From: Mycobacteroides saopaulense
Lineage (GTDB): Bacteria > Actinomycetota > Actinomycetes > Mycobacteriales > Mycobacteriaceae
DNA length: 64,000 bases
NCBI RefSeq assembly: GCF_001456355.1
Contig: NZ_CP010271.1
Coordinates: 1,922,001 to 1,986,000, forward strand
Reading direction: 5' to 3'
In this document: positions 24,473-59,022 of the stretch, in pieces
Numbering within the stretch: position 1 is the first letter of the stretch
Layout of the letters: each line of letters begins with the position of its first letter
Made by a program: the position numbers and the translations under genes
Notes under the pieces: model-generated
Databases searched by the model: none
What the model saw: only the letters and a program-made list of their open reading frames with translations
What the model was told of the DNA's origin: nothing

Positions 24473-25327
24473 GTGAGGATTCCCGAGCTTTTCATGACCA
24501 CCCGTAATACGTTGGTGGCCGCTGCGGCGACTGACACAGATACCCCCGCTTCCACCCCGTCCCGGCGGGAGTGGGTACTCAATCGGCGCTGGGAAATCGT
24601 TCGATTTCTCTCCCCGTTAGCGGTGCTGCTCATCTGGCAGGCAGCCAGCGCCTGGGGGTTGATCGATCCGGACATCCTGCCCGCGCCCTCGACCATCGCG
24701 CACGCCGGAATCGAATTGATCGGCAACGGACAGCTTGCCGAGGCGTTGCGGGTATCCGGCGTCCGTGCCGCCGAAGGACTGCTGCTGGGCGGCCTGGTGG
24801 GTGTGGTGCTGGGCGCCGCGGTGGGGTTGTCACGTCTTGTCGACGCGGTGGTGGACCCGACCATGCAGATGGTTCGGGCGCTGCCGCATCTCGGGCTGAT
24901 CCCACTGTTCATCGTGTGGTTCGGCATCGGGGAGCTGCCCAAGGTGCTGATGGTGGCGCTCGGGGCGGCGTTCCCCTTGTACCTCAACACCACCTCCGCC
25001 ATCCGGCAGGTGGACCCCAAGCTCTTCGAAACCGCTCAGGTGCTTGGGTTCTCCTTCTGGCAGCGTCTGCGGGTCATCGTCGTGCCCAGTGCGACACCCC
25101 AGGTGCTCGTGGGCTTGCGTCAGTCTCTGGCGTTGTCCTGGCTGACCCTCATCGTCGCCGAGCAGATCAACGCCGACGCCGGGGTGGGCTTCCTTATCAA
25201 CAACGCACGTGACTTTCTACGTATCGACGTCATCATCTTCGGTCTGGTGGTCTACGCGCTGCTGGGCATTGTCACGGACGCCGTCGTGCGCGTGCTGGAA
25301 CGGCGTGCGCTGCGATACCGATCATGA
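24473..25327 (+). CDS. ssuC: Aliphatic sulfonate ABC transporter permease
   Basis: A 284-residue inner-membrane permease of the SsuC/TauC type with about six helices between residues 42 and 275. The coupling motif is in the region IRQVDPKLFETAQVLGFSFW. It passes alkanesulfonates through the membrane with SsuB and SsuA. GTG 24473 is the first start; ATG 24494 (MTTRNTL) is an equally good alternative that removes seven residues, and no clear ribosome-binding site decides. It begins the ssuC-B-A-D operon. Confidence 0.92.
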   Translation: MRIPELFMTTRNTLVAAAATDTDTPASTPSRREWVLNRRWEIVRFLSPLAVLLIWQAASAWGLIDPDILPAPSTIAHAGIELIGNGQLAEALRVSGVRAAEGLLLGGLVGVVLGAAVGLSRLVDAVVDPTMQMVRALPHLGLIPLFIVWFGIGELPKVLMVALGAAFPLYLNTTSAIRQVDPKLFETAQVLGFSFWQRLRVIVVPSATPQVLVGLRQSLALSWLTLIVAEQINADAGVGFLINNARDFLRIDVIIFGLVVYALLGIVTDAVVRVLERRALRYRS

Positions 25328-25337
25328 AAGGCAGATC

Positions 25338-26087
25338 ATGACAGCGGTTTTCGAGGTCGCCGAGTTGTCGGCGCAGTCCGCCACCCCGGCGGCCGAACTG
25401 GCATCGGTGACCAAATGGTACGGACGCAACCGCGTGCTGGACGACGTGTCGTTGCGGGTCGGTCGCGGTGAGATCGTGGCGTTGGTGGGACGCAGCGGCT
25501 CTGGCAAGTCGACGGTTCTGCGGGTGTTGTCGGGGTTGGCCGGTGACTACGACGGCGACCGCGAGGTCTTGGGCGCACCCGCGGTCGCCTTTCAGGAACC
25601 ACGGCTGTTCCCGTGGCGCTCCGTGCGCGATAACGTGCTGTACGGGCTCACCCGCACCAAACTGTCGAGGACCGAGGCACTTTCCCGTGCAGAACGAGCC
25701 CTGGACGAGGTGGGGCTGGCCGACAAGGCGCAGGCATGGCCGTTGACGCTCTCGGGCGGACAGGCGCAGCGGGTGTCCTTGGCGCGTGCGCTGGTCGCGG
25801 AGCCGCAACTGCTGCTCCTCGACGAGCCGTTCGGCGCCCTGGACGCGCTGACCAGGCTTTCCATGCACCGACTGCTGCTGAATCTGTGGCGGCAGCACGA
25901 ATTCGGCGTGCTACTGGTCACGCATGACGTGGACGAGGCGATATCGCTCGCGGACACCATTGTGGTGCTGGACGAGGGCAGGGTGGTGCACACGCTGCGC
26001 ATTCGGAATCCACGCAAACCGCAGGGCAAGCATGACGCCGAAACCGAGAAATACCGAGGAGAGCTCCTTGCGCAGCTTGGCGTTTAA
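25338..26087 (+). CDS. ssuB: Aliphatic sulfonate ABC transporter ATP-binding protein
   Basis: A 249-residue ATPase. Walker A is GRSGSGKST, the Q-loop AFQEPRLFPW, the signature TLSGGQAQRVSLARAL, Walker B LLLLDEPFGALDAL, and the switch His is in VTHDVDEA. ATG 25338 is chosen because it follows ssuC by 10 bp and matches the family N-terminus; the open frame runs upstream into ssuC. It energises sulfonate import. The 3' end overlaps the TTG start of ssuA by 20 bp. Confidence 0.93.
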   Translation: MTAVFEVAELSAQSATPAAELASVTKWYGRNRVLDDVSLRVGRGEIVALVGRSGSGKSTVLRVLSGLAGDYDGDREVLGAPAVAFQEPRLFPWRSVRDNVLYGLTRTKLSRTEALSRAERALDEVGLADKAQAWPLTLSGGQAQRVSLARALVAEPQLLLLDEPFGALDALTRLSMHRLLLNLWRQHEFGVLLVTHDVDEAISLADTIVVLDEGRVVHTLRIRNPRKPQGKHDAETEKYRGELLAQLGV

Positions 26088-27093
26088 GTCAATCGTCGGT
26101 GTAACCGCGATTCTGTTGTCGTTGACGGCGTGCACCTCCGGTCGTGACGAGGCAGGTGATTCGGCCGCGCCACAGCTTGTCCCGCTCTCGGAGCTGGCAG
26201 GTCTGACTCTGCATGTGGGGGATCAGAAGGGCGGCACGGAGGCGCTGTTGCGGGCGGCGGGTGAGCTGGACAACGTGCCGTACAAGATCGAGTTCTCCAC
26301 CTTCACCTCCGGCCCGCCACAGATCGAAGCGGCGACCGCGGGCAAGATCGACTTCGCTGTCACCGGCAACACGCCGCCGATTTTCGGTGCCGCTTCCAAG
26401 GCGAAAATCAAAGTGGTGTCCGGATACACCAACGATGCTTCCGGAGATCAGATCCTGGTTCCCGCGGACTCCGCCATTCACGCGGTGACCGATCTGCGCG
26501 GTAAGAAGGTACTGGTCGGCAAGGGCAGTTCGGCGCACGGTCATCTGCTGCTCCAGCTGCAGAAGGCCGGTCTCACCATCAAGGATATTCAGGCCGTGTT
26601 CTTGCAACCGGCCGACGCGTTCACCGCGCTGAGTCAGGGCCAGGCCGATGCATGGGCCATCTGGGACCCGTACACCGCGATCGCCGAAAAGCAGCTCAAG
26701 GTTCGTACTCTCGTGACCGCGAGCGGCGTCGCCAACGGATACGGGTTTGGTGTCGCCGCACAATCGGCTCTGCGTGATGCCCAACGCAATACGGCATTGT
26801 CCGATCTGGTGCAACGCATCGCCCGGGCCAGCTCCTGGGCGCAGGCGCATCCGCAGGAGTGGTACGCGAAATACGCCGCGGCCATCGGAATCGACCCCGC
26901 GGCAGCCGCTTTGGCGCAGTCGCGCAGCGTGCGCCTGTCGATACCGCTGAACGACGAGGTGAACGCCTCGGAGCAGAACCTGACCGATCTGTTTGCCCAG
27001 TCCGGCCAGATCCAGGGCAAGCCCACGTTCTCCGATTTCGTCGACAACCGCTTCAACGACGTTCTCAGCCAGTTCTTCGTCAAGTCCCAATAA
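26068..27093 (+). CDS. ssuA: Aliphatic sulfonate-binding lipoprotein
   Basis: A 341-residue periplasmic-binding protein anchored as a lipoprotein: signal segment then lipobox LTAC, with the Cys near residue 22. TTG 26068 is chosen because GAGGAGAG lies 5 nt upstream and it gives a proper signal peptide, whereas the longer frame runs back through ssuB. FTSGPPQIEAATAGKIDFAV and SQGQADAWAIWDPYTA are SsuA/TauA-like. It delivers sulfonates to SsuBC. Confidence 0.9.
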   Translation: MRSLAFKSIVGVTAILLSLTACTSGRDEAGDSAAPQLVPLSELAGLTLHVGDQKGGTEALLRAAGELDNVPYKIEFSTFTSGPPQIEAATAGKIDFAVTGNTPPIFGAASKAKIKVVSGYTNDASGDQILVPADSAIHAVTDLRGKKVLVGKGSSAHGHLLLQLQKAGLTIKDIQAVFLQPADAFTALSQGQADAWAIWDPYTAIAEKQLKVRTLVTASGVANGYGFGVAAQSALRDAQRNTALSDLVQRIARASSWAQAHPQEWYAKYAAAIGIDPAAAALAQSRSVRLSIPLNDEVNASEQNLTDLFAQSGQIQGKPTFSDFVDNRFNDVLSQFFVKSQ

Positions 27094-27115
27094 CTCACCC
27101 AAGGAGAGCATTCCC

Positions 27116-28213
27116 GTGGCCGCCAAGTTTTTCTGGTTTCTGCCCACCAACGGTGACAGCCGTTCGATCGTGGGCGCCTCACACGCCTCGACGCACCACA
27201 CCGTCCCGGCGGGCTACCGCGAACCGAGCCTGCGGTATCTCGGCGAGGTCGCTCGTGCCGCGGACCGGCTGGGCTTCGAGGGTGTGCTGACTCCCACCGG
27301 CACCTGGTGCGAGGACGCCTGGCTGACCGCGGCCGGGCTGCTGGATCAGACGGAGCGCCTGAAGTTTCTGGTGGCCTTCCGGCCGGGATTGGTACCGCCC
27401 ACCCTGGCCGCGCAACAAGCGGCGACCTTGCAGCGCTTCTCCAACGGCCGATTGCTGCTGAATGTGGTCAGTGGTGGTGATGATGCAGAGCAGCGGCGCT
27501 TCGGCGACTGGCTCAGCCACGACGAACGTTACGAGCGCACCGGGGAATTCCTGCAGATCGTCCGCGACGTCTGGAAGGGCGAGCCTGTCGACTTTTCTGG
27601 AAAGCACTACACGGTCACGGATGCGCGCGTATCGGAGCCACCAAGCCCGTTGCCGCAGTTATATTTCGGCGGTTCCTCCCCGGCGGCACTGCCCATCGCG
27701 GCCGATCACGTCGACGTGTATCTGACCTGGGGTGAGCCACCGGCCGCCGCGGCAGCCAAGATCGAGGCGGTGCGCGCGCTGGCCAAGGAGCGCGGACGGA
27801 ACCTGCGATTCGGAATCCGGCTGCACACCATCAGCCGCGACACCTCCGAGGCGGCCTGGGCCGTCGCGAACTCGTTGGTCGGGGAGCTGACGCCCGATCA
27901 GATCGCCAAGGCGACAGCGCTGCATTCGAAGTCCGAATCCGAGGGGCAGCGTCGCATGACGGCGCTGCACGGCGGCCGGCTCGACAAACTGGAGATCTAT
28001 CCGAACCTGTGGGCGGGTGTCGGACTTGTGCGTGGCGGTGCGGGTACGGCCCTGGTGGGCAGCCACGAGGAGGTCGCCAACTTGATCTCCGAGTACCACG
28101 CCCTCGGGTTCGACGAGTTCATCCTGTCCGGGTACCCGCACCTGGAAGAGGCGTATTGGTTTGCCGAGGGCGTGCTGCCGTTGCTCAGGAAACGCGGAGC
28201 GCTGGCCGCGTAG
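27116..28213 (+). CDS. ssuD: FMNH2-dependent alkanesulfonate monooxygenase
   Basis: A 365-residue enzyme of the bacterial luciferase-like (LLM) superfamily that cleaves alkanesulfonates to aldehyde and sulfite using FMNH2 from a separate reductase. Typical stretches are FFWFLPTNGDSRSIVG, LKFLVAFRPGLVPPTLAAQQ, LYFGGSSPAA and LSGYPHLEEAYWFAEGVLP. GTG 27116 has AAGGAGAG 7 nt upstream. No SsuE-type flavin reductase is adjacent, so the FMNH2 source lies elsewhere. It ends the ssu operon. Confidence 0.95.
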   Translation: MAAKFFWFLPTNGDSRSIVGASHASTHHTVPAGYREPSLRYLGEVARAADRLGFEGVLTPTGTWCEDAWLTAAGLLDQTERLKFLVAFRPGLVPPTLAAQQAATLQRFSNGRLLLNVVSGGDDAEQRRFGDWLSHDERYERTGEFLQIVRDVWKGEPVDFSGKHYTVTDARVSEPPSPLPQLYFGGSSPAALPIAADHVDVYLTWGEPPAAAAAKIEAVRALAKERGRNLRFGIRLHTISRDTSEAAWAVANSLVGELTPDQIAKATALHSKSESEGQRRMTALHGGRLDKLEIYPNLWAGVGLVRGGAGTALVGSHEEVANLISEYHALGFDEFILSGYPHLEEAYWFAEGVLPLLRKRGALAA

Positions 28214-46925: not shown

Positions 46926-48071
46926 TCACGCTCTTGTGCGCCGACGGTAAGACCGCGCGGCTTCGGCCAGCCCCTCCGGGGATTCCTCGCCCCAGGATCG
47001 CAGCATCGCGCGGTTGGCCAGCACCACATTGCGTGTGGCCTCGATCCGCTCAGACTCGTAGTCGGCCAGTCCGCGGGTGGGATCGTTCGGGCGGCCTGAC
47101 AGTGTGCGCGCCAGCGCGCGGGCGTCGACCACAGACTGTGATCCGCCGTTGGCGCCCAATGGGTACATGGGATGTGCGGCATCGCCCAGCAGGGTGACTC
47201 GCCCCTGGCCCCACCGGGGTAGCGGGTCGCGGTCGACCATCGGGTATTCGACGATGCATTCGGTGCTACGCACCATGGTTTGAATATCCAGCCACCCGAA
47301 ATCCCAGCCGGGGAAATGCCGCAGTACCTCGTCGGCTGTCACGGGGTCATTCCACCGGGCCCCGTCCGGGAGCTGCCCGGCACAGCCGGTACGTGCGAGC
47401 GCCACCCAATTCACGGTGCGCTCGCCGATGGGGTAGGCGATGAGTTCGTGATCGGTGTCGTCGTGTGCGGCGATCATGGCCTTACCCGTGAGGAACGGTC
47501 CGACATCGACGGCGCCGCGCCACATCCGCACACCGGACCAGCGCAACGGATCCGCGGGATGCAGCTGTGCGCGTACCGCCGAGTTCACGCCGTCCGCGCC
47601 AACCAGGACATCTGCTTCGACATCGCCGCCGGTGGTGTGGGTCCGCACGCCGACCGCACTGCTCTCGAATCCGAGAACGCGGCAATCCGTCCGAACCGCT
47701 TGTGGGCCAATGCGTTCCCGTACCGCATCGAGCAGCATGAGTTGCAACCGACCACGGTGGACAGAGATCTGTGGGTACGGGTAGTCGCCCGTGAGGCCGC
47801 GCGGCTCGGTGTACAGGACGGTGCCGTGCTTGTCGCAGAACCGGATCTCGGTGGTGGCGACGCCCGCGTGGGCCAGCGCATCACCCAAACCGAGTTCGGT
47901 CAGCACGCCCACGGCGTGGGGCAGCATGTTGATGCCCACGCCCAGCGGCTTGACCTCGTGCGCACTCTCCAACACCACCACCGGGAACCCCGCGGCATGC
48001 AGGGTCAAGGCTGAGGTGAGTCCGCCGATACCTGCTCCGGCAATCACGATCGATGTCTTGTTGGTCTTCAT
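46926..48071 (-). CDS. FAD-dependent monooxygenase (PHBH fold)
   Basis: A 381-residue flavin monooxygenase. The FAD motif IVIAGAGIGGLTSALTL is near residue 8, the DG motif VLVGADGVNSAVRAQ near 155, and GRVTLLGDAAHPMYPLGANG near 290. It resembles aromatic-ring hydroxylases acting on salicylate-like or quinolone-like compounds; the substrate cannot be set. It diverges from a LysR gene across 71 bp, the standard arrangement for a regulator and its target. Confidence 0.88.
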   Translation of the reverse strand: MKTNKTSIVIAGAGIGGLTSALTLHAAGFPVVVLESAHEVKPLGVGINMLPHAVGVLTELGLGDALAHAGVATTEIRFCDKHGTVLYTEPRGLTGDYPYPQISVHRGRLQLMLLDAVRERIGPQAVRTDCRVLGFESSAVGVRTHTTGGDVEADVLVGADGVNSAVRAQLHPADPLRWSGVRMWRGAVDVGPFLTGKAMIAAHDDTDHELIAYPIGERTVNWVALARTGCAGQLPDGARWNDPVTADEVLRHFPGWDFGWLDIQTMVRSTECIVEYPMVDRDPLPRWGQGRVTLLGDAAHPMYPLGANGGSQSVVDARALARTLSGRPNDPTRGLADYESERIEATRNVVLANRAMLRSWGEESPEGLAEAARSYRRRTRA

Positions 48072-48129
48072 ATGATCCAGCGTCGAGTGATGTCGCGTAG
48101 AAGTCCAAGATCTATGTGTTCATCTATCT

Positions 48130-48144
48130 ATAAGATCTTCTTAT
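48130..48144. promoter_or_regulatory. Candidate LysR operator (T-N11-A palindrome)
   Basis: ATAAGA-TCT-TCTTAT is an inverted repeat with 6-bp arms and a T-N11-A core (48131-48143). It overlaps the start codon of the LysR gene and is close to the divergent monooxygenase promoter. A second AAGATCT copy lies 25 bp upstream at 48107-48113. This fits an autorepressing and activating LysR site, by pattern only. Confidence 0.45.
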
Positions 48145-49012
48145 GGAGATTCATCAGCTGCGCTATCTGCTCGCCGTCGCAGAGACGGCGAGTTTCACCA
48201 AGGCCGCTGTCTCACTCCATGTCGCCCAACCCGGAGTAAGTGCTCAGATTCGCCTACTGGAACGCGAACTGGGGCAGGAGTTGTTCGACCGGTCGGCGCG
48301 TCAGGTCCGCCTCACCGATGCGGGTGAAGCGGTAATTCCTTACGCCCGAGCAGCTCTAGCTGCGGTGGACGGCGTTCGTGCCACGGCGGACGAGATCGGG
48401 GGACTGCTGCGGGGACATATCGCGTTCGGGACCGTCCCCTCGCACGGCGCCGACCTGCCGACGCTGCTCTCGGGTTTTCATGATGATCACCCGGCGATCA
48501 CCATCGCCCTCACCGAAGCGGGGAGCGACGAGCTTGTCTTCGGCCTGCGCGAGGGCCGGTTGGATGGCGCGATCGTGGCTCTGGGGGCGAAAGAGCCGGA
48601 GGGTCTTGGCCTGCGCGTCATCGATGACCAGCCCCTGGTGGCGGCAGTTGCCGGCGGCGATCCGTTGGCGAGACGTCGTACGGTCACCCTGGAGATGCTC
48701 GGTGAGCGGACCCTGATCTGCCTACCGAGGGGCAGCGGCGTCCGGTCGATCCTGGAAACCGCATGCCGATCTGCGGGGTTCACTCCGAACGTTGCGTTCG
48801 AGGCGAGCTCGCCGCGATCACTGGTGACCCTCGCCGAGCAGGGGCTCGGTGTGGCGGTGCTGCCTGCCCCGTACGTGCGGGACGGCGGCGCCCTGGTGGC
48901 GCTGGGCATCCGGCCGGCGTTGCGCGGTCGCCTCGCGTTGGCGTGGCGTCTCGACGGTTCCATCGGCCCGGCAGCGCGCAGCTTCCTGGAGCGGGCCCGC
49001 ACCGCGCTGTGA
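48143..49012 (+). CDS. LysR-family transcriptional regulator
   Basis: A 289-residue LysR protein: N-terminal winged helix (MEIHQLRYLLAVAETASFTK, HVAQPGVSAQIRLLERELGQ) followed by an effector-binding domain from residue 90. It probably controls the divergent FAD monooxygenase gene. The start overlaps a palindromic operator-like site. The effector is unknown. Confidence 0.92.
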   Translation: MEIHQLRYLLAVAETASFTKAAVSLHVAQPGVSAQIRLLERELGQELFDRSARQVRLTDAGEAVIPYARAALAAVDGVRATADEIGGLLRGHIAFGTVPSHGADLPTLLSGFHDDHPAITIALTEAGSDELVFGLREGRLDGAIVALGAKEPEGLGLRVIDDQPLVAAVAGGDPLARRRTVTLEMLGERTLICLPRGSGVRSILETACRSAGFTPNVAFEASSPRSLVTLAEQGLGVAVLPAPYVRDGGALVALGIRPALRGRLALAWRLDGSIGPAARSFLERARTAL

Positions 49013-49068
49013 CGGTCGTTGCGATCATCCTGAATCCAATCTCCGGCCCCGCGCCCCGGTGGCGCAAT

Positions 49069-49089
49069 GGTGCATCTACGACGGTGCAT
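49069..49089. repeat. Direct repeat GGTGCAT x2 upstream of GntR gene
   Basis: Two GGTGCAT copies (49069-49075 and 49083-49089) are separated by 7 bp, so they recur every 14 bp. They lie within the 203-bp gap between the LysR and GntR genes. They could be part of a control site for the GntR-led operon. Nothing else clear was found in this gap apart from the CAGGAGG ribosome-binding site at 49205. Confidence 0.25.
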
Positions 49090-49215
49090 AGCAGGTCGTG
49101 GGTGGTGTCGACCGGCGCAATGCAACGGACCTGACAGATTTTCATTTCACCCGGCCGGTAGCCGCTGAACAGGCCTTTAGCGTGTGGGCGAGGTCGATTC
49201 ACGTCAGGAGGACTC

Positions 49216-49968
49216 GTGGCCGCTGCCGAGCCCACGCCATTGCGTCGCCCACGCGCCGATCAGGCGCGGTTGGTCGCCGACGTGTTGCGTCACCAGATCC
49301 ACGCGGGTGGTTACGTCGACGGTGGCCTGCCGAGCGAGCAGGAGTTGGCCGCCGAATTCTTCGTCTCCCGTAACACCGTCCGTGAGGCACTGACGACCCT
49401 CAAAGACGAGGGCCTGATCGAGCGCGGGCCACGCACCGGCACCCATGTGGCGTTGCGCAAGTATGAGCACGGTTTGGATGCGCTGCTCGGGCTCAAGGAG
49501 ACATTCAAGGGTTACGGCGAGGTTCGCAATGAGGTCCGCGTCATCCAAGAGGTGAACGCCCCGCCCGCGGTGGCCCTCCGATTGCGTGTCGGTGCCGGAA
49601 CCCCGGTGATCTTCATCGAGCGTCTGCGCTATCTCGGTGACTTGCCGCTCAGCCTCGACAAGACCTATCTCACGCCGGATGTGGGGGAGGCGGTCATCGA
49701 GCACCAGCTGGAGACCAACGACGTGTTCGCCCTGATCGAACGTGTCACGGGCCGTCGGTTGGGTTCTGCCAACCTGTCTCTGGAAGCCGTTGCGGCGGAT
49801 TCACATTCGGCTGCGACACTGCAGGTGCCGGATAACGCGCCACTGCTGCTCCTGGAGCGGCTCACTCATCTCGACGACGGGACCCCCGTCGATCTCGAAT
49901 ACATCAGAATGCGCGGAGACCGAATCACGTTGCGTAGCAGCTTGCTTCGGCCCGCCGAAGGAAGGTAA
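49216..49968 (+). CDS. GntR-family regulator (HutC/UTRA subfamily)
   Basis: A 250-residue regulator. The winged helix carries LPSEQELAAEFFVSRNTVRE near residue 40, and a UTRA effector domain spans about 90-245 (PPAVALRLRVGAGTPVIFIE, SLDKTYLTPDVG). GTG 49216 follows CAGGAGG. It lies 7 bp upstream of the ferredoxin gene and heads the operon, so it most likely controls the sulfonate genes and itself. The effector is unknown, possibly a sulfonate or sulfur metabolite. Confidence 0.9.
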   Translation: MAAAEPTPLRRPRADQARLVADVLRHQIHAGGYVDGGLPSEQELAAEFFVSRNTVREALTTLKDEGLIERGPRTGTHVALRKYEHGLDALLGLKETFKGYGEVRNEVRVIQEVNAPPAVALRLRVGAGTPVIFIERLRYLGDLPLSLDKTYLTPDVGEAVIEHQLETNDVFALIERVTGRRLGSANLSLEAVAADSHSAATLQVPDNAPLLLLERLTHLDDGTPVDLEYIRMRGDRITLRSSLLRPAEGR

Positions 49969-49975
49969 GCGCGAC

Positions 49976-50203
49976 GTGACTCTGGTCAACAACCGCATCG
50001 ACGTCCCGGTCACCATCGATGAATCACTGTGCATCGACGGCTGCACGCTGTGTGTGGACATCTGCCCACTCGATTCGCTGGCGATCAATCCAGAAAACGG
50101 TAAGGCCTTCATGCACGTCGACGAGTGCTGGTACTGCGGGCCCTGCGCCGCACGCTGTCCCACCGGAGCCGTCACCGTCAACATGCCCTATCTCCTTCGT
50201 TAA
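49976..50203 (+). CDS. 2x[4Fe-4S] ferredoxin, AprB/AsfB-like
   Basis: A 75-residue ferredoxin starting at GTG 49976, 7 nt after the GntR stop. Two cluster motifs are CIDGCTLCVDICP (CxxxCxxCxxxCP) and CWYCGPCAARCP (CxxCxxCxxxCP). The spacing resembles the small subunit partners of APS reductase-like flavoproteins, and such a flavoprotein closes this operon. It likely hands electrons to that enzyme. The GntR frame does not extend into it. Confidence 0.88.
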   Translation: MTLVNNRIDVPVTIDESLCIDGCTLCVDICPLDSLAINPENGKAFMHVDECWYCGPCAARCPTGAVTVNMPYLLR

Positions 50204-50214
50204 GTCAGGACACC

Positions 50215-51624
50215 ATGAAGAGAACAGCCCTTCTCAGTTCCGTTGTCACGACCCTGCTCCTGCCGCTGCTCGCCGGTTGCTCGCTGGACTCCGGGTCCGG
50301 CTCGGCCAATGAGGTGACCGTCGTCGTCGGCTATCAGTCGAAGACCATCAACACCGTGACCGCGGGCACACTGCTGCGCGCCCAGGGTTACCTGGAGAAG
50401 CGGCTCGCCGAGGCCGGCGAGCGCACCGGAACCAAGTACACCGTGCAGTGGCAGGACTATGACACCGGGGCGCCGATCACCGCGCAGATGCTCGCCGAGA
50501 AGATCGACATCGGCTCGATGGGCGACTACCCGTTGCTGATCAACGGGTCCAAGACTCAGGCCAACGAGAAGGCTCGCACCGAACTGGTGTCGATCACCGG
50601 ATACAACGCCAAGGGTGCGCTCAACATGGTTGTGGTGCCAACAAATTCGCCGATTACCGCTCTTCCCGAACTGAAGGAAAAGAAGGTGTCCGCCAGTGTG
50701 GGCTCCGCGGGGCACGGAACCCTGGTACGCGCGCTGCGCAACGAGGGTATCGATCCAACCAAGGATATCGAGGTGCTGAATCAGCAGCCACAGGTCGGGG
50801 CATCGGCACTGGAATCCGGTCAGGTACAGGCACTGTCACAGTTCGTGGCGTGGCCGGGCCTGTTGGTGTTCCAGAAGAAGGCCAAGCTGCTCTACGACGG
50901 CGCCGAGCTGAATGTCCCGACTTTCCATGGAGTGGTGGCGCGCCGAGACTATGTCAAGCAGCACCCCGAGGTACTTGACGCGTTCCTGCAGGCGCAGCTC
51001 GACGCTACCGACTTCATTCACGAGAAGTCTCTGGAGGCCGCTCGCATCGTGGCCGAGGGCAGCGGCCTGCCGCAGGAAGTGGTGTACCTGTACAACGGGC
51101 CCGGCGGCACGTCGTTCGACGCCACGCTCAAGCCCTCGCTCATCGAGGCTTTCAGAAGCGATGTGCCCTATCTGAAGTCGATAGGTGACTTCGCCGATCT
51201 CAACATCGACGAGTTTGTGCAGGACGGTCCGCTGCGTCAGGCATATACGAATCGTGCGAAGAACTACGAGACCGAGTTGGCGGCCAAGGTCAATCCGTTG
51301 GTGCTGAGGCCGGCCGACGGTGCGGATCCGAGCAATGCCGCGGAGATCTGGTTTGACGGCAAGGATTCCACCCAGGTGTATGGCACGGCGCAGGAGTTGC
51401 TGAAGGCTGTCGGTGCGGCCAATGCCGCGGGACAGAAGATCCGTGCCGCCTACATCGCCGACGCCGAGCTGGGCACCCGGTGGTTCGCCGACCATGCCTG
51501 GTGGGTTCGGGATTCGGCGGGACTGCACCCGTTCACCACCAGTGCCGGTGCCACGCGCTACATCTCGACGCATCCGGGCGCGACACCCCTGGATTACGCA
51601 CAGGCCTTGGCGGCGGCTTCATGA
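50215..51624 (+). CDS. Sulfonate-type ABC binding lipoprotein with C-terminal NosL-like domain
   Basis: A 469-residue substrate-binding lipoprotein (lipobox LLAGC, Cys near residue 21) starting at ATG 50215. Residues 30-350 are of the NMT1/SsuA type (QMLAEKIDIGSMGDYPLLIN, ASALESGQVQALSQFVAWPG). The tail, about 365-469, adds AAEIWFDGKDSTQVYGTAQE, then IRAAYIADAELGTRWFADHA and WWVRDSAGLHPF. Its order resembles the NosL accessory fold, but the Cys metal ligands of NosL are missing. Binding proteins normally end near 340 residues, so this tail is unusual. Confidence 0.85.
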   Translation: MKRTALLSSVVTTLLLPLLAGCSLDSGSGSANEVTVVVGYQSKTINTVTAGTLLRAQGYLEKRLAEAGERTGTKYTVQWQDYDTGAPITAQMLAEKIDIGSMGDYPLLINGSKTQANEKARTELVSITGYNAKGALNMVVVPTNSPITALPELKEKKVSASVGSAGHGTLVRALRNEGIDPTKDIEVLNQQPQVGASALESGQVQALSQFVAWPGLLVFQKKAKLLYDGAELNVPTFHGVVARRDYVKQHPEVLDAFLQAQLDATDFIHEKSLEAARIVAEGSGLPQEVVYLYNGPGGTSFDATLKPSLIEAFRSDVPYLKSIGDFADLNIDEFVQDGPLRQAYTNRAKNYETELAAKVNPLVLRPADGADPSNAAEIWFDGKDSTQVYGTAQELLKAVGAANAAGQKIRAAYIADAELGTRWFADHAWWVRDSAGLHPFTTSAGATRYISTHPGATPLDYAQALAAAS

Positions 51625-52493
51625 GCAGCCTGCCCATCCTGCAGGCTCGACCGCGCGCGGTACCGGTGATCGAGGATGCAGTCGACGAGCCGACGAATCC
51701 CCGACGTCCGGGGTCGCCGTATGTCGCCTGGAGTATCCGGGCCTCGTCGGTCGCGGTCGCGGTATTGCTATGGCAGCTGTTGACGGTCAACAAGGTGCGC
51801 TTCGGGCTGCGTTTCGACACTCTGCCCACGGTCACCGAAATCGCCTCTGCCTTCACCAAGCGCATTGGCACCGAGCAGTATTGGCTGGATCTCGGTCAAT
51901 CGACCATCCGGATTCTCACCGGATTCGGCCTCGCGGCGGCGCTGGGGATCGTCACCGGCATCTGGCTGGGGCGCTCCCCGTTGTTCGCGAACATCTTCGG
52001 CCCGCTGACCGAACTGGCGCGCCCGATCCCGGCGATCGCCATAGTGCCGGTGGCGATCCTGCTGTTTCCCAGCGATGAGGCCGGCATCGTGTTCATCACC
52101 TTCCTGGCGGCCTACTTCCCGATCATGGTGAGTACCCGGCACGCGGTGCGTGCCCTTCCGACACTCTGGGAGGAGTCGGTGCGCACCCTGGGCGGCAATC
52201 GCTGGGATGTGCTGTTGCGTGTGGTGCTGCCCGGCAGTCTGCCGGGGGTCTTCGGTGGGCTGTCCGTCGGCATCGGCGTCGCCTGGATTTGTGTGGTGTC
52301 CGCCGAGATGATCTCGGGCCGTTTGGGAGTCGGGTACCGCACCTGGCAGTCGTACACGGTGTTGGCTTACCCGGACGTGTTCGTCGGAATCATCACCATC
52401 GGCGTGCTCGGGTTTCTGACATCGGCGGCCGTCGAGGTGGTTGGCCGTCGTGTCACTCGTTGGCTACCCCGGGCCGAGGAGGTGCGCTCATGA
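51621..52493 (+). CDS. ABC transporter permease, sulfonate/taurine type
   Basis: A 290-residue permease with about six helices from residue 40 to 275. The coupling region is ALPTLWEESVRTLGGNRWDV. ATG 51621 overlaps the binding-protein stop as ATGA and is preferred over the longer open frame. It works with the preceding lipoprotein and the following ATPase. Substrate class is inferred from the transporter family and operon content. Confidence 0.9.
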   Translation: MSSLPILQARPRAVPVIEDAVDEPTNPRRPGSPYVAWSIRASSVAVAVLLWQLLTVNKVRFGLRFDTLPTVTEIASAFTKRIGTEQYWLDLGQSTIRILTGFGLAAALGIVTGIWLGRSPLFANIFGPLTELARPIPAIAIVPVAILLFPSDEAGIVFITFLAAYFPIMVSTRHAVRALPTLWEESVRTLGGNRWDVLLRVVLPGSLPGVFGGLSVGIGVAWICVVSAEMISGRLGVGYRTWQSYTVLAYPDVFVGIITIGVLGFLTSAAVEVVGRRVTRWLPRAEEVRS

Positions 52494-53233
52494 GCGCTTC
52501 AACACTGGTGCTGGACGGGGTGAGTCTCGGCTATGGCGGACGCACAGTCGTGGATCGTCTGAGCCTGACCGTGCGCCCCACCGAAATCCTGGTCCTGACC
52601 GGGCCGTCGGGCTGTGGCAAGTCCACCGTGCTGCGGGCCGTAGCCGGGCTGCTGTCGCCCGAGTCGGGGGCCATTGCCGCCGATGGCGAGAAGGTCGTCA
52701 CCACCTCCCGACACCGGGCCATGGTTTTCCAGGACAACGCATTGCTGCCCTGGCGCACAGTGCGATCGAACATCGAGTTGGCTCTCAGGCTGGGTGGTGT
52801 GCCGCGCCAGGGCCGGCGTGAGGCGGCGCAGGTCTGGATCGACGATGTGGGACTGACGGGATTCGAGAACTACCTGCCCAAGAGCCTCTCCGGCGGTATG
52901 CGCCAACGTGTCCAGCTGGCCCGCGGCCTGGCCGGTGCGCCCCGTGCGGTCATGATGGACGAGCCGTTCGGGGCGCTGGATGCACAAACCCGTGCCAGCA
53001 TGCAACGCCTGCTCGTCGACACCTGGCGCAGCCACCCCACCACGGTGGTGTTCGTGACGCACGATGTCGACGAAGCGCTCCTGCTCGGCGACCGAATCGC
53101 TGTCCTGGGGCGCGCGGGTCAACCCCTGCGTGCGCTGCTGGACGTCCCCCGACCCCGTGAGGCCGACGTCGATCGCAGCATGTTGCGCGCCGAAGTTCTT
53201 GCCGCACTGAACCATACGGAGCTTGTTTCCTGA
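52490..53233 (+). CDS. ABC transporter ATP-binding protein, sulfonate/taurine type
   Basis: A 247-residue ATPase: Walker A GPSGCGKST, Q-loop VFQDNALLPWR, signature SLSGGMRQRVQLARGL, Walker B VMMDEPFGALDA, switch His in VTHDVDEA. ATG 52490 overlaps the permease stop by 4 bp, and the stop overlaps the flavoprotein ATG by one base (TGATG). Confidence 0.92.
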   Translation: MSASTLVLDGVSLGYGGRTVVDRLSLTVRPTEILVLTGPSGCGKSTVLRAVAGLLSPESGAIAADGEKVVTTSRHRAMVFQDNALLPWRTVRSNIELALRLGGVPRQGRREAAQVWIDDVGLTGFENYLPKSLSGGMRQRVQLARGLAGAPRAVMMDEPFGALDAQTRASMQRLLVDTWRSHPTTVVFVTHDVDEALLLGDRIAVLGRAGQPLRALLDVPRPREADVDRSMLRAEVLAALNHTELVS

Positions 53234-55914
53234 TGCAGACCCCTGAAGTTGATAGCGCCATCCGGCTGGACTGTGACGTCCTGGTGATCGGCGGGGGCAC
53301 CGCCGGAACCATGGCGGCGCTGACCGCGGCCGAGAACGGTGCCCAGGTGATTCTCCTGGAGAAGGCGCATGTGCGCCATTCCGGTGCGCTGGCCATGGGA
53401 ATGGACGGTGTGAACAACGCCGTCATCCCGGGCAAGGCCGAGCCGGAGGACTACGTCGCGGAGATCACCCGCGCCAATGACGGAATCGTGAACCAGCGCA
53501 CCGTGTATCAAACAGCGACACGCGGTTTCGCGATGGTGCAGCGCCTCGAACGCTACGGAGTCAAGTTCGAGAAGGATGAGCACGGTGAGTATGCGGTGCG
53601 GCGCGTGCACCGATCGGGCTCCTATGTGTTGCCGATGCCCGAGGGCAAGGATGTCAAGAAGGCGCTCTACCGCGTGCTGCGGCAGAAGTCGATGCGCGAG
53701 AAGATCCGCATCGAAAACCGCGTCATGCCGGTGCGCGTGCTCACCGATGACGGGCGGGCCGTCGGCGCCGCGGGCTTCAACACGCGAACCGGCGAATTCG
53801 TCACGGTCGGTGCGAAAGCGGTCATTCTGGCCACCGGGCCCTGTGGTCGCCTGGGTCTGCCCGCGTCTGGCTATCTGTACGGCACCTACGAGAACCCGAC
53901 CAACGCCGGCGACGGATACGCGATGGCTTACCACGCCGGCGCCGAGTTGTCGGGGATCGAGTGCTTCCAGATCAACCCGCTCATCAAGGACTACAACGGT
54001 CCAGCATGTGCCTATGTCGCCAATCCCTTCGGCGGCTATCAGGTGAACGCCAAGGGGGAGCGCTTCGTCGACTCCGACTACTGGTCCGGGCAGATGATGA
54101 CCGAGGTCAAGAACGAAATCGAATCCGCGCGCGGCCCGATCTATCTCAAGGTGACTCATCTGCCGGAGGAGACGCTGTCGGCGCTGGAAGGCATTCTGCA
54201 CACCACCGAGCGGCCCACGCGCGGAACCTTCCATGCCAACCGTGGACATGACTACCGCACACACGACATCGAGATGCACATCTCCGAGATTGGTTTGTGC
54301 AGTGGACATTCCGCATCGGGGGTGTGGGTGGACGAGCATGCTCGCACCACGGTGCCCGGTCTGTACGCTGCCGGTGACCTGGCTTGTGTGCCGCACAACT
54401 ACATGATTGGCGCCTTCGTCTATGGCGATCTGGCCGGTGAGCATGCCGCCTCGACCCTGTCGAAAATACCGGCGCCACTGGAGTTTCCGGTTGACCAGGT
54501 CAAGGAGGCGCATGAGTTGATCTATCGCCCGTTGCGCCATCCCGACGGTCCGCCGCAGCCGCAGGTCGAATACAAGCTGCGTCGATTTGTCAACGATTAT
54601 GTGGCCCCGCCGAAGACGGCGGCCAAGCTGTCGCTGGCCGTGCAGACCTTCGAGCGGATGGCCGAGGAGGTGGGCCAGATCGGCGCGCGCACGCCCCATG
54701 AGCTCATGCGCGCCGCCGAGGTGTCGTTCATCAGGGATTGCGCCGAGATGGCGGCGCACTCCTCGTTGACCCGCACCGAATCGCGGTGGGGTCTCTACCA
54801 CGACAGGGCGGATCTACCGGATCGTGACGACACGAATTGGCGTTACCACCTAAACCTGCGCAAGGGTGCCGAGGGTGGCATGGACTTCGTGAAACGTCCC
54901 GTCGCACCGTATTTCGTTCCGGTTCCCGGCCTCGACGATCTGCCGTCGGGAGAGACCGAACCGATCGCGGTGCACCAGCCCGAGCTGCTGGGCGGCAAGG
55001 CCCCGGCCGCCCGGGTCTCTCAGGCGGTTCCGGCGGAGGCGGAGCAACCGCCCTCCCCACGGATTGCCGCGGTGCTGTCCCTGGAGGCCCCGACTGTGGA
55101 GGATCTGGCACCGTATCTGTCCGACGACGATCCGGGTGTACGCCGTACCGCGATCGCGTCCCTGACCGAACACATTCCCGGCGGTTACGAGGATGCCTTG
55201 TTGAATGCGTTGGGCGACAGCGATTCCTCGGTGCGCCGCACAGCGGCCGATGGAGTGCGCGAATTGGTCGAGGTACTGGAGACCCCCGCGGCGATCCGCG
55301 GATATGTCAGCGCACCCGATCCGTTGGTGCGCAGTACCGCGCTCTACGTCGCCAGCGCACGGCGAGTGGGCGATCCGTCCGCCTATGTTGGTTCGCTGCG
55401 CGACCCCGACCATCGGGTCCGGATCGAGGCCGTGCGTGCGCTGGTGTCTGTGGACGACGCGGTATCCATCGGCACCGCAGCCGATGACGACAACCGTGAA
55501 GTACGGATCGCCGTGGCCAATGGGCTCGCCAAGCTGGCCGCCGGTGGCGAAACGGTGCGGGCGCTGGTGTCCGATCGTGACCCGCTGGTGCGGGCGGCCG
55601 CGCTCACGGCGATCGGCACACTGGGGGTCGATGAAGGAATTTTCGACGCCGTGGAGGAGGCGCTGCGAGCCCCGGCCTGGCAGATCCGCCAGGGAGCGGT
55701 GCGGGCACTGGCGGGGGCATCCCCGGAGCAAGCGCTGCCTCCGCTGGGGCGGGCCCTGGCCGATCCGCACCTGGACGTGCGTAAGTCGGCGGTGCTGAGC
55801 CTGAGCCAGTGGGCATCGGCGGAGCCTGCCGCGCGCGAGGCACTGACTGGTGCGCTCGACGATGGCGATGCCGATGTGAGAGCCTATGCGCGACAGGCAC
55901 TTGCGGCCGGCTGA
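53233..55914 (+). CDS. APS-reductase/fumarate-reductase-like flavoprotein fused to HEAT repeats (AsfA-like)
   Basis: An 893-residue protein. Residues 1-600 form an FAD-dependent oxidoreductase: the dinucleotide motif VLVIGGGTAGTMAAL at 17-30, HSGALAMGMDGVNN near 53, AVILATGPCGRLG near 197, and GLYAAGDLACVPHNYMIGAF near 377. Overall it resembles the AprA/AsfA type rather than succinate dehydrogenase. Residues 610-893 add about nine HEAT-like repeats, each with a D-x-x-V-R-x-x-A core. With the ferredoxin and transporter it forms a likely reductive step in arylsulfonate or other organosulfur use, as known for asfAB of Pseudomonas. The reaction is inferred. Function of the HEAT part is unknown. 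Confidence 0.85.
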   Translation: MQTPEVDSAIRLDCDVLVIGGGTAGTMAALTAAENGAQVILLEKAHVRHSGALAMGMDGVNNAVIPGKAEPEDYVAEITRANDGIVNQRTVYQTATRGFAMVQRLERYGVKFEKDEHGEYAVRRVHRSGSYVLPMPEGKDVKKALYRVLRQKSMREKIRIENRVMPVRVLTDDGRAVGAAGFNTRTGEFVTVGAKAVILATGPCGRLGLPASGYLYGTYENPTNAGDGYAMAYHAGAELSGIECFQINPLIKDYNGPACAYVANPFGGYQVNAKGERFVDSDYWSGQMMTEVKNEIESARGPIYLKVTHLPEETLSALEGILHTTERPTRGTFHANRGHDYRTHDIEMHISEIGLCSGHSASGVWVDEHARTTVPGLYAAGDLACVPHNYMIGAFVYGDLAGEHAASTLSKIPAPLEFPVDQVKEAHELIYRPLRHPDGPPQPQVEYKLRRFVNDYVAPPKTAAKLSLAVQTFERMAEEVGQIGARTPHELMRAAEVSFIRDCAEMAAHSSLTRTESRWGLYHDRADLPDRDDTNWRYHLNLRKGAEGGMDFVKRPVAPYFVPVPGLDDLPSGETEPIAVHQPELLGGKAPAARVSQAVPAEAEQPPSPRIAAVLSLEAPTVEDLAPYLSDDDPGVRRTAIASLTEHIPGGYEDALLNALGDSDSSVRRTAADGVRELVEVLETPAAIRGYVSAPDPLVRSTALYVASARRVGDPSAYVGSLRDPDHRVRIEAVRALVSVDDAVSIGTAADDDNREVRIAVANGLAKLAAGGETVRALVSDRDPLVRAAALTAIGTLGVDEGIFDAVEEALRAPAWQIRQGAVRALAGASPEQALPPLGRALADPHLDVRKSAVLSLSQWASAEPAAREALTGALDDGDADVRAYARQALAAG

Positions 55915-55990
55915 CGGGAACGCCACAAGCACAATAGATTCGGCCCGGCAACGTGGCGGAGGTCATGTTACGGGCGGGTACCAGGGCCAC

Positions 55991-59022
<3,032 letters not shown>

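Follow-up and report, generated by a model that had tools for sequence, protein, structure and literature searches.

What do six tightly packed genes of Mycobacteroides saopaulense accomplish by joining a regulator, a substrate importer and a ferredoxin to a flavoprotein whose relatives are mostly named fumarate reductase or succinate dehydrogenase? The genes lie on the + strand at 49216-55914 of the window, the whole 64,000-nucleotide stretch analysed here, which covers positions 1,922,001-1,986,000 of a single-contig 4.65-Mb genome. Our preferred reading, to which we give a probability of roughly 0.45, is that this operon takes up organosulfur compounds and releases sulfite by a ferredoxin-driven, flavin-based reaction. 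Open reading frame (ORF) and domain scans delimited the following features (aa, amino acids; bp, base pairs; ABC, ATP-binding cassette; FAD, flavin adenine dinucleotide; APS, adenosine 5'-phosphosulfate; PAPS, 3'-phosphoadenosine 5'-phosphosulfate).

49216..49968, + strand: GntR-family regulator with a UTRA ligand domain (250 aa, GTG start; PF00392 60 bits, PF07702 114 bits)
49976..50203, + strand: 2x[4Fe-4S] ferredoxin (75 aa, GTG start; PF12838; eight Cys)
50215..51624, + strand: SsuA/TauA-like substrate-binding lipoprotein (469 aa; TIGR01728 128 bits)
51621..52493, + strand: ABC permease (290 aa; PF00528)
52490..53233, + strand: ABC ATPase (247 aa; PF00005; nearest model, taurine importer ATPase)
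53233..55914, + strand: flavoprotein, whole (893 aa; FAD domain, then HEAT repeats)
53233..54954, + strand: FAD domain of the flavoprotein, APS/PAPS-reductase-like (taken here as residues 1-574; NF006131 877 bits)
55060..55914, + strand: fused HEAT-repeat domain of the flavoprotein (boundaries as adopted here; PF13646 107 bits, about the last 280 residues)
49013..49215, + strand: intergenic stretch from the LysR gene to the GntR gene, putative operon promoter (203 bp)

The GntR gene ends at 49968, leaving a gap of 7 bp to the ferredoxin start at 49976, and the ferredoxin gene ends at 50203, leaving 11 bp to the lipoprotein start at 50215. The lipoprotein and permease genes overlap by 4 bp, as do the permease and ATPase genes, and the ATPase and flavoprotein genes overlap by 1 bp. 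The original prediction, made from the DNA letters without database searches, had described six genes with overlaps or gaps below 15 bp, and the joints (+7, +11, -4, -4 and -1 bp) agree with it. The domain scans likewise recovered the GntR regulator, ferredoxin, sulfonate-type transporter and flavoprotein that it named, and its fused extra domains are the HEAT repeats. It was also right that a GntR regulator takes the place of a LysR one, since a GntR/UTRA protein is encoded inside the operon and a LysR gene is found only upstream.

The flavoprotein is the sole enzyme of the operon, and it is a member of the NCBIfam family NF010374 (PRK13800; 1750.9 bits against a cut-off of 1196, residues 1-891) that also passes the shorter model NF006131 (PRK08275; 877 bits against 587). 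It stays under the cut-offs of NF005331 (APS-reductase alpha; 279 of 557 bits) and TIGR02061 (aprA; 145 of 641.75 bits), and scores 164 bits with the TfrA model and 160 bits with the succinate dehydrogenase/fumarate reductase (SDH/FRD) model. The nearest solved protein by sequence is 8a8o_A, the PAPS reductase alpha subunit of Methanothermococcus (E=1.9e-59 to 4e-59), and AprA 1jnr_A is the second-best sequence in the PDB (E=5.3e-33 to 2.8e-32). PF12139 was not among the Pfam matches of the flavoprotein; the genome-wide search with this profile was blank in control genomes as well, so it is uninformative. We then placed the family in a tree of 27 rows, some with odd composition, into which 1jnr was entered as two pieces (middle missing) and E. 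coli FrdA as its C-terminal part. A branch with 100/100 support put the family and the APS/PAPS reductases on one side and the SDH/FRD and AsfA-type proteins on the other, and the approximately unbiased (AU) test gave p 0.536 for the family as one clade apart from the APS reductases. By sequence, the flavoprotein is nearer to APS reductase than to fumarate reductase, and the fumarate reductase/succinate dehydrogenase name of NF010374 and NF006131 is not supported for it. Clustering with fumarate reductases had been named in advance as one outcome that would contradict the original prediction, and the tree, the hidden Markov model scores and the partner genes all disagree with such clustering; the description of an AprA-like flavoprotein that is paired with a ferredoxin and accompanied by a sulfonate-type importer stands.

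In the tree alignment, Asn74, Glu141, Gln145, Trp234 and Arg265 of A. fulgidus AprA correspond to N61, R123, R127, Y219 and L250 of the window protein. Arg265, Trp234 and Glu141 of AprA are residues with known roles, and that of Arg265 is catalytic. The Asn74 column is kept as N61, and the counterpart of Arg265 is lost. Since 8a8o retains Asn74, Trp234 and Arg265 and also differs at Glu141 and Gln145, only the Trp234 and Arg265 changes separate the window protein from it. The columns of E352 and H359 are common to the window protein and 8a8o (A. fulgidus is not covered there). An excerpt of the 8a8o paper states that substrate specificity is set by loop 104-123, that Gln145 clashes with PAPS and that Trp206/Tyr207 bind FAD (PMC10322725). 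In our family the specificity loop is replaced by an insertion with the motif HxxGxYVLPMP, which contains the invariant H126 and Y131.

Twelve residues (N61, H126, Y131, Y219, E243, L250, K252, D253, W284, E352, H359 and H388) are each present in 240 of 240 family proteins, one of which is the window's own; the proteins come from best-hit lists, so variation at the family edge is understated. E243 alone among the twelve is kept in 120 AsfA-type proteins. N61, H126, Y219, L250, E352 and H359 occur in 0/120 of them in one alignment, although the L250 column of AsfA-type rows moves with the alignment (1/6 Leu in the tree alignment). H126, Y219, L250, W284, E352 and H359 are missing from the four aligned SDH/FRD rows, one of them partial, and the Q246 and R277 columns are common to the family and SDH/FRD. 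The pocket is strongly conserved and appears to resemble neither the APS nor the AsfA pocket, and the loss of the arginine suggests a leaving group other than AMP (adenosine monophosphate).

In the ferredoxin, the eight Cys of the two 4Fe-4S motifs are invariant across 11 aligned proteins, including P0122 of C. metallidurans, and the motif ECW[YHF]C, with Trp52 in the second cluster motif, occurs in 76/76 Mycobacteriales copies; P0122 carries Gln at the Trp position. Among structure chains, polyferredoxins matched best, followed by the APS reductase beta subunit 3gyx_B (1.9e-8), the PAPS reductase beta subunit 8a8o_C (1e-7) and 1jnr_B (3.5e-6). Residues 12-68 of the window ferredoxin align with 3-58 of 8a8o_C, so that the offsets of the alignment ends place Trp52 at about position 42-43, and an excerpt of the PAPS reductase paper proposes beta-subunit Trp42 for electron transfer (PMC10322725). 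The operon thus appears to have the two-cluster partner with an electron-transfer Trp that is typical of APS/PAPS reductases, the Trp being assigned by position. Overall, the operon shares with AprAB and with the PAPS reductase of Methanothermococcus thermolithotrophicus (8a8o) a same-family FAD subunit, a 2x[4Fe-4S] partner, the Asn74 column and, by position, the beta-subunit Trp. It differs from them in Leu for Arg265, Tyr for Trp234, the replaced specificity loop, a ferredoxin of 75 aa against beta subunits of 104 and 150 aa, the HEAT domain, and its link to an importer instead of sulfate activation.

The lipoprotein scored 128 bits with TIGR01728, under the cut-off of 163.5, and passed the cut-offs of NMT1/THI5-like Pfam profiles; the ATPase scored 209 bits with NF008421, under its cut-off of 357. 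A profile built from 12 sequences of the lipoprotein family matched TauA (6ssy, 4.5e-25) and SsuA (2x26, 6e-23), and its C-terminal extension of about 130 aa matched NosL (7og7, 3.3e-4). In single-sequence searches, NosL was over the cut-off for five relatives in other bacteria (L129:5718-7118 (-), L023:1888-3354, L024:10921-12351, L026:6005-7426 and L131:10950-12377) and under it for L022, and there was no NosL match for the window lipoprotein alone or for that of Tsukamurella. The binding protein with a NosL-like extension is apparently a family-wide fusion, too diverged in the window to score. The ssu system (SsuABC, SsuD) has an importer of the same superfamily, but the operon lacks a monooxygenase, and its lipoprotein matched the window's own SsuA-like protein with only 68 bits over 170 aa, against 251-263 bits for its orthologues. 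This SsuA-like protein belongs to an ssuCBA-like importer that is followed by an SsuD-like monooxygenase at window 24473-28213 (+), 21 kb upstream of the operon; the SsuD-like protein scored 469-480 bits, under the cut-offs.

Conservation of the gene set was followed in the 80 Mycobacteriales loci (assigned by names) that are the best 80 of 592 confirmed scan matches. The flavoprotein was found in 80 of these, the ATPase in 79, the permease in 78, the lipoprotein and the HEAT part in 77 each, the ferredoxin in 76 and the GntR gene in 75. Gene order was kept, barring contig ends and a few rearrangements: the locus begins within the operon in L069, L072, L085 and L095, the ferredoxin lies immediately upstream of the flavoprotein and 16 bp from a contig end in L044, additional DNA lies within the operon in L042, L052 and L058, and the HEAT match is divided in L042 into two pieces and truncated at a contig end in L079 and L102. 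The identical six-gene order recurred in four genomes from a single further family within the class. Because the order is kept in the 80 loci and in these four genomes, the operon is not a chance arrangement. At E<=1e-100, with the own genome counted, the flavoprotein occurs in 12/396 genomes across the phylum and in 93/198 sampled genomes of the genus, and over the searched part it is 95-98% identical to proteins that carry the names Mycobacteroides franklinii and M. chelonae. Three genomes of the genus have the flavoprotein match in separate pieces (G031:C1:1343829-1346514, G454:C52 and G484:C2), with a stop in one of the G031 pieces. We also clustered the neighbours of the 80 loci and considered the 45 largest clusters, reading family names from the sequences of clusters present in at least six loci. 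Recurring families, such as decarboxylase-like (22 loci), serine-hydrolase-like (21) and PyrR-like (13) ones, look like regional synteny; no oxygenase-like neighbour family was found in more than 7 loci.

Among plasmids, 234 records matched the flavoprotein, mostly distantly, and from the best matches we chose 19 annotated regions in three phyla for spread and annotation. A small ferredoxin lies near the flavoprotein in all 19, and HEAT repeats are present in all 19; Tsukamurella has them fused, and the other 18 regions have a gene of their own for them. In 16 regions an ABC set is adjacent, while Acidithiobacillus (L025), Mesorhizobium (L030) and Nostoc (L128, which has only binding proteins) show no matching set nearby. 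The regulator is GntR in 7 regions, Crp/Fnr in 7 others and LysR in 3 cyanobacteria, with none noted in 2. By annotation, with one of each checked, DUF971 or GBBH-like N proteins are encoded near the module in 10/19 regions and Mrp/NBP35 in 4, all cyanobacteria.

The window proteins were compared with their counterparts in five plasmid loci from outside Actinomycetota; for GntR three of the loci served, and for the importer four. The ferredoxin was 53-63% identical (88-102 bits; Proteobacteria and Cyanobacteria), the lipoprotein 31-34% over 444-483 aa (251-263 bits), the permease 37-41% (173-188 bits), the ATPase 40-47% (177-210 bits) and the GntR protein 35-39%. The fused HEAT domain was 23-31% identical to the standalone HEAT proteins, the Acidithiobacillus match being not significant (E 0.05). 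As controls, the lipoprotein reached 68 bits with the window's SsuA-like protein and 33.5 bits over 124 aa with the Asf-type protein of Azospirillum, the permease 77 and 83 bits, and the ATPase 151 and 168 bits, hardly apart from its orthologue scores. Importer, ferredoxin and flavoprotein thus travel as one module.

In other phyla, the surroundings of this module include organosulfur neighbourhoods. We counted annotated sulfonate, sulfite/TSUP exporter, YeiH, flavin desulfonation-type and other organosulfur genes within 9 kb, excluding the module's own importer, and found them in 11 of the 19 plasmid regions (L022, L023, L024 with TSUP only, L027, L028, L029, L128, L130, L132, L135 and L136). 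Control DNA, 50 kb on each of six module plasmids away from the module, adds up to 300 kb, the length of 15 regions, and contained no such gene, apart from one borderline case, a formylglycine-generating enzyme in Pseudanabaena. This supports the organosulfur setting that the original prediction had claimed. The enrichment is local and is not a measured rate, because the six plasmids are all positive ones, the annotation has gaps and several of the plasmids are relatives of each other.

The same prediction had called the operon Asf-like, which is correct only in part. Like asfRABC, the arylsulfonate genes of P. putida S-313, with putative AsfA and AsfB also in C. metallidurans, the operon combines a flavoprotein, a 2x[4Fe-4S] ferredoxin and an SsuA-type importer in an organosulfur setting; unlike asfRABC, it has GntR and not the LysR-type AsfR, HEAT repeats are added, and its ferredoxin and probably its importer are not orthologous. 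As stand-ins for AsfA and AsfB of P. putida S-313 we used P0121 and P0122 of C. metallidurans, an assignment inferred from position and pairing. Rmet_4334 presumably lies on the CH34 megaplasmid, a replicon whose record is unannotated. An excerpt of the CH34 genome paper gives the reductase-ferredoxin pair as Rmet_4334/5 (PMC2864759). The megaplasmid has four matches to the window flavoprotein, the two stronger of which were viewed in context: one stands beside a ferredoxin and the other has FrdB-like neighbours. P0121 scored 108 bits with TfrA, 87 with SDH/FRD and 56 with NF006131. The window flavoprotein is 25-28% identical to AsfA-type proteins over the alignment (30% over the local match to P0121), and the AsfB-type ferredoxin of Azospirillum matched the window ferredoxin with 28.5 bits. 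The importer beside that AsfB-type ferredoxin is the same in kind as the operon importer but probably not orthologous to it, given the low score of the lipoprotein match. The flavoprotein passes the family cut-off in 14 of 61 genomes (the G031 copy is frame-broken), and 5 of the 61 contain an AsfA-type match at 1e-60, with 48-50% identity to P0121; both occur together in three (G021, G028 and G035), and the presence of both in the same cell speaks for different substrates. Kinship with asfAB was therefore rejected on the tree, the motifs and the coexistence in three genomes, with P0121/P0122 standing in for the P. putida proteins; the AsfA-type proteins fall in a separate clade.

In our preferred reading, the operon would be a self-contained organosulfur-scavenging module. 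The GntR/UTRA regulator would sense a sulfonate-like compound or its product, and lipoprotein, permease and ATPase would import such a compound. Flavoprotein and ferredoxin would pair up in the manner of AprAB, with electrons moving from the clusters via Trp52 to FAD, and the reduced FAD may attack the substrate sulfur as in APS/PAPS reductases, here presumably in the reductive direction. Sulfite would be released and then assimilated by the cell's ordinary sulfite reductase, and the HEAT domain may serve as a docking scaffold.

Several results weigh against this reading. The AU test rejects the alternative placements only marginally (family with AsfA-type p 0.049, family with SDH/FRD p 0.041), and the branches are long. 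The Arg265 column is Leu and the Trp234 column Tyr in 240/240 listed proteins, both being kept in 8a8o, and APS-reductase chemistry therefore cannot be assumed for the flavoprotein; a plain C-S bond would be open to attack only with a good leaving group. A FAD-monooxygenase-like family adjoins 7/80 loci and an acyl-CoA-dehydrogenase-like one 6/80, by names read from the sequences. Compared with 254 flanking ORFs, Cys/Met content is lower in GntR, lipoprotein, permease and HEAT, but the ATPase (p=0.66) and the flavoprotein (p=1) are not Cys/Met-poor. Finally, eight of the 19 plasmid regions have no organosulfur neighbour (L021, L025, L026, L030, L129, L131, L133 with thiamine genes, and L134), and an SsuD-like match occurs in 13/14 same-genus genomes with the flavoprotein and in 12/23 without it (at 1e-100, uncorrected for relatedness, none over the curated cut-off). 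The co-occurrence with SsuD means that an electron-donor role also fits. In that role, which reviews assign to AsfAB, the pair would feed electrons to an oxygenase encoded in trans, for example SsuD, and widen its range to aryl or bulky sulfonates. The ssuCBA-ssuD-like locus in the same window and, in G019, an SsuD-like match some 10 kb away from the operon speak for it, and it keeps its weight because an oxygenase partner is the easier chemistry if the substrate is a plain arylsulfonate. On the other hand, G020 has the flavoprotein and no SsuD match at 1e-100, relatedness and genome size are confounders of the co-occurrence, the curated SsuD cut-off is never reached, and the flavoprotein is not of the AsfA lineage, whose genes coexist with it in three genomes. 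We regard the electron-donor role as possible but rather unlikely.

The other explanations fit less well. The SsuA label might reflect the fold only, with a substrate that is not a sulfur source, such as a thiamine pyrimidine precursor or a nitrogen compound; the sub-threshold sulfonate and taurine scores of the lipoprotein alongside its NMT1/THI5-like matches, the one plasmid region of 19 (L133) beside thiC/thiO/thiS and thiazole synthase, and the eight regions without organosulfur neighbours favour this, but the organosulfur genes in 11/19 regions against at most one borderline case in the control, and the profile matching TauA and SsuA structures first, make it improbable. A diverged APS or PAPS reductase providing an alternative step of sulfate assimilation would agree with the sequence and tree kinship, and the changes at Glu141 and Gln145 are no objection, as the working 8a8o differs there too. 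The Leu at Arg265, however, makes an APS reductase unlikely, and with the Tyr at Trp234, the scores below the model cut-offs, an importer of the organic-anion type, the absence of ATP sulfurylase and kinase from the operon, and PAPS_reduct and APS_kinase genes elsewhere in the genome, we consider this very unlikely. Both APS_kinase matches of the genome, at 1.41 and 3.96 Mb, are outside the window, in line with the original statements that no APS kinase is nearby and that classical sulfate reduction is unlikely. Least credible of all is a fumarate reductase or succinate dehydrogenase. The NCBIfam names and some shared columns (Q246, R277) are in its favour, but tree placement, the lack of any FrdB/SdhB-type or membrane-anchor gene in the operon, and the six conserved residues missing from the SDH/FRD rows speak strongly against it.

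Should organosulfur uptake with flavin-based sulfite release be correct, a common soil and mycobacterial sulfur-acquisition route would be hidden by a wrong name, and a compact six-gene unit would make the role of flavoprotein/ferredoxin pairs in desulfonation testable. When SsuD- and TauD-type enzymes desulfonate compounds for sulfur supply, they depend on oxygen; Xsc and glycyl-radical enzymes do not require it to split sulfonates. A more specific idea, which we put forward as doubtful, is that the family is a third, so far overlooked branch of APS-reductase-like flavoproteins in aerobes of at least three phyla, an O2-independent reductive desulfonase in which FAD, driven by ferredoxin, would split sulfite from an imported sulfonate-like compound, with a HEAT scaffold and DUF971 or Mrp/NBP35 as the likely Fe-S maturation partner (14/19 regions); if true, this would be a further, flavin-based chemistry concealed by the fumarate-reductase label. 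Titles and abstract openings in the literature searched contained nothing about this gene set, and term searches in the main text of PMC7661421, PMC8557817, PMC13352529 and PMC3868597 returned no fumarate-reductase or HEAT-repeat gene. We rate as known that the families exist in NCBIfam, under the unsupported name, and the gene set as a variant of the APS-reductase-like flavoprotein/ferredoxin kind.

For regulation, a scan of 76 upstream stretches for an operator before GntR found no shared dyad, mostly GC-rich dyads that usually lie inside coding sequence. In the promoter and terminator scan, sites were no more numerous than in shuffled sequence, and no promoter was found in 49013..49215. The LysR gene at 48143-49012 ends 203 bp upstream of the operon beside a divergent FAD monooxygenase gene, the two occupying window 46926-49012; the monooxygenase passes NF005720 (479 bits against a cut-off of 400). 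Next to the module in one cyanobacterium, a LysR protein of 666 aa (L023:6574-8574 (-)) has a weak C-terminal NMT1-like match (E=3e-4, under the cut-off) and could sense the importer's own ligand; L029 and L136 have genes of similar size. GNAT acetyltransferase and amidase genes lie near the module in the distant hosts Nostoc (L128) and Methylocystis (L129). Downstream of the operon, mbtI (salicylate synthase) begins 100 bp after the flavoprotein gene, and TTAGCATAGGCTAGGCTTA lies at window 55985-56015, just 5' of mbtI. This element resembles an IdeR iron box, and because it precedes mbtI, that gene probably starts its own transcription unit.

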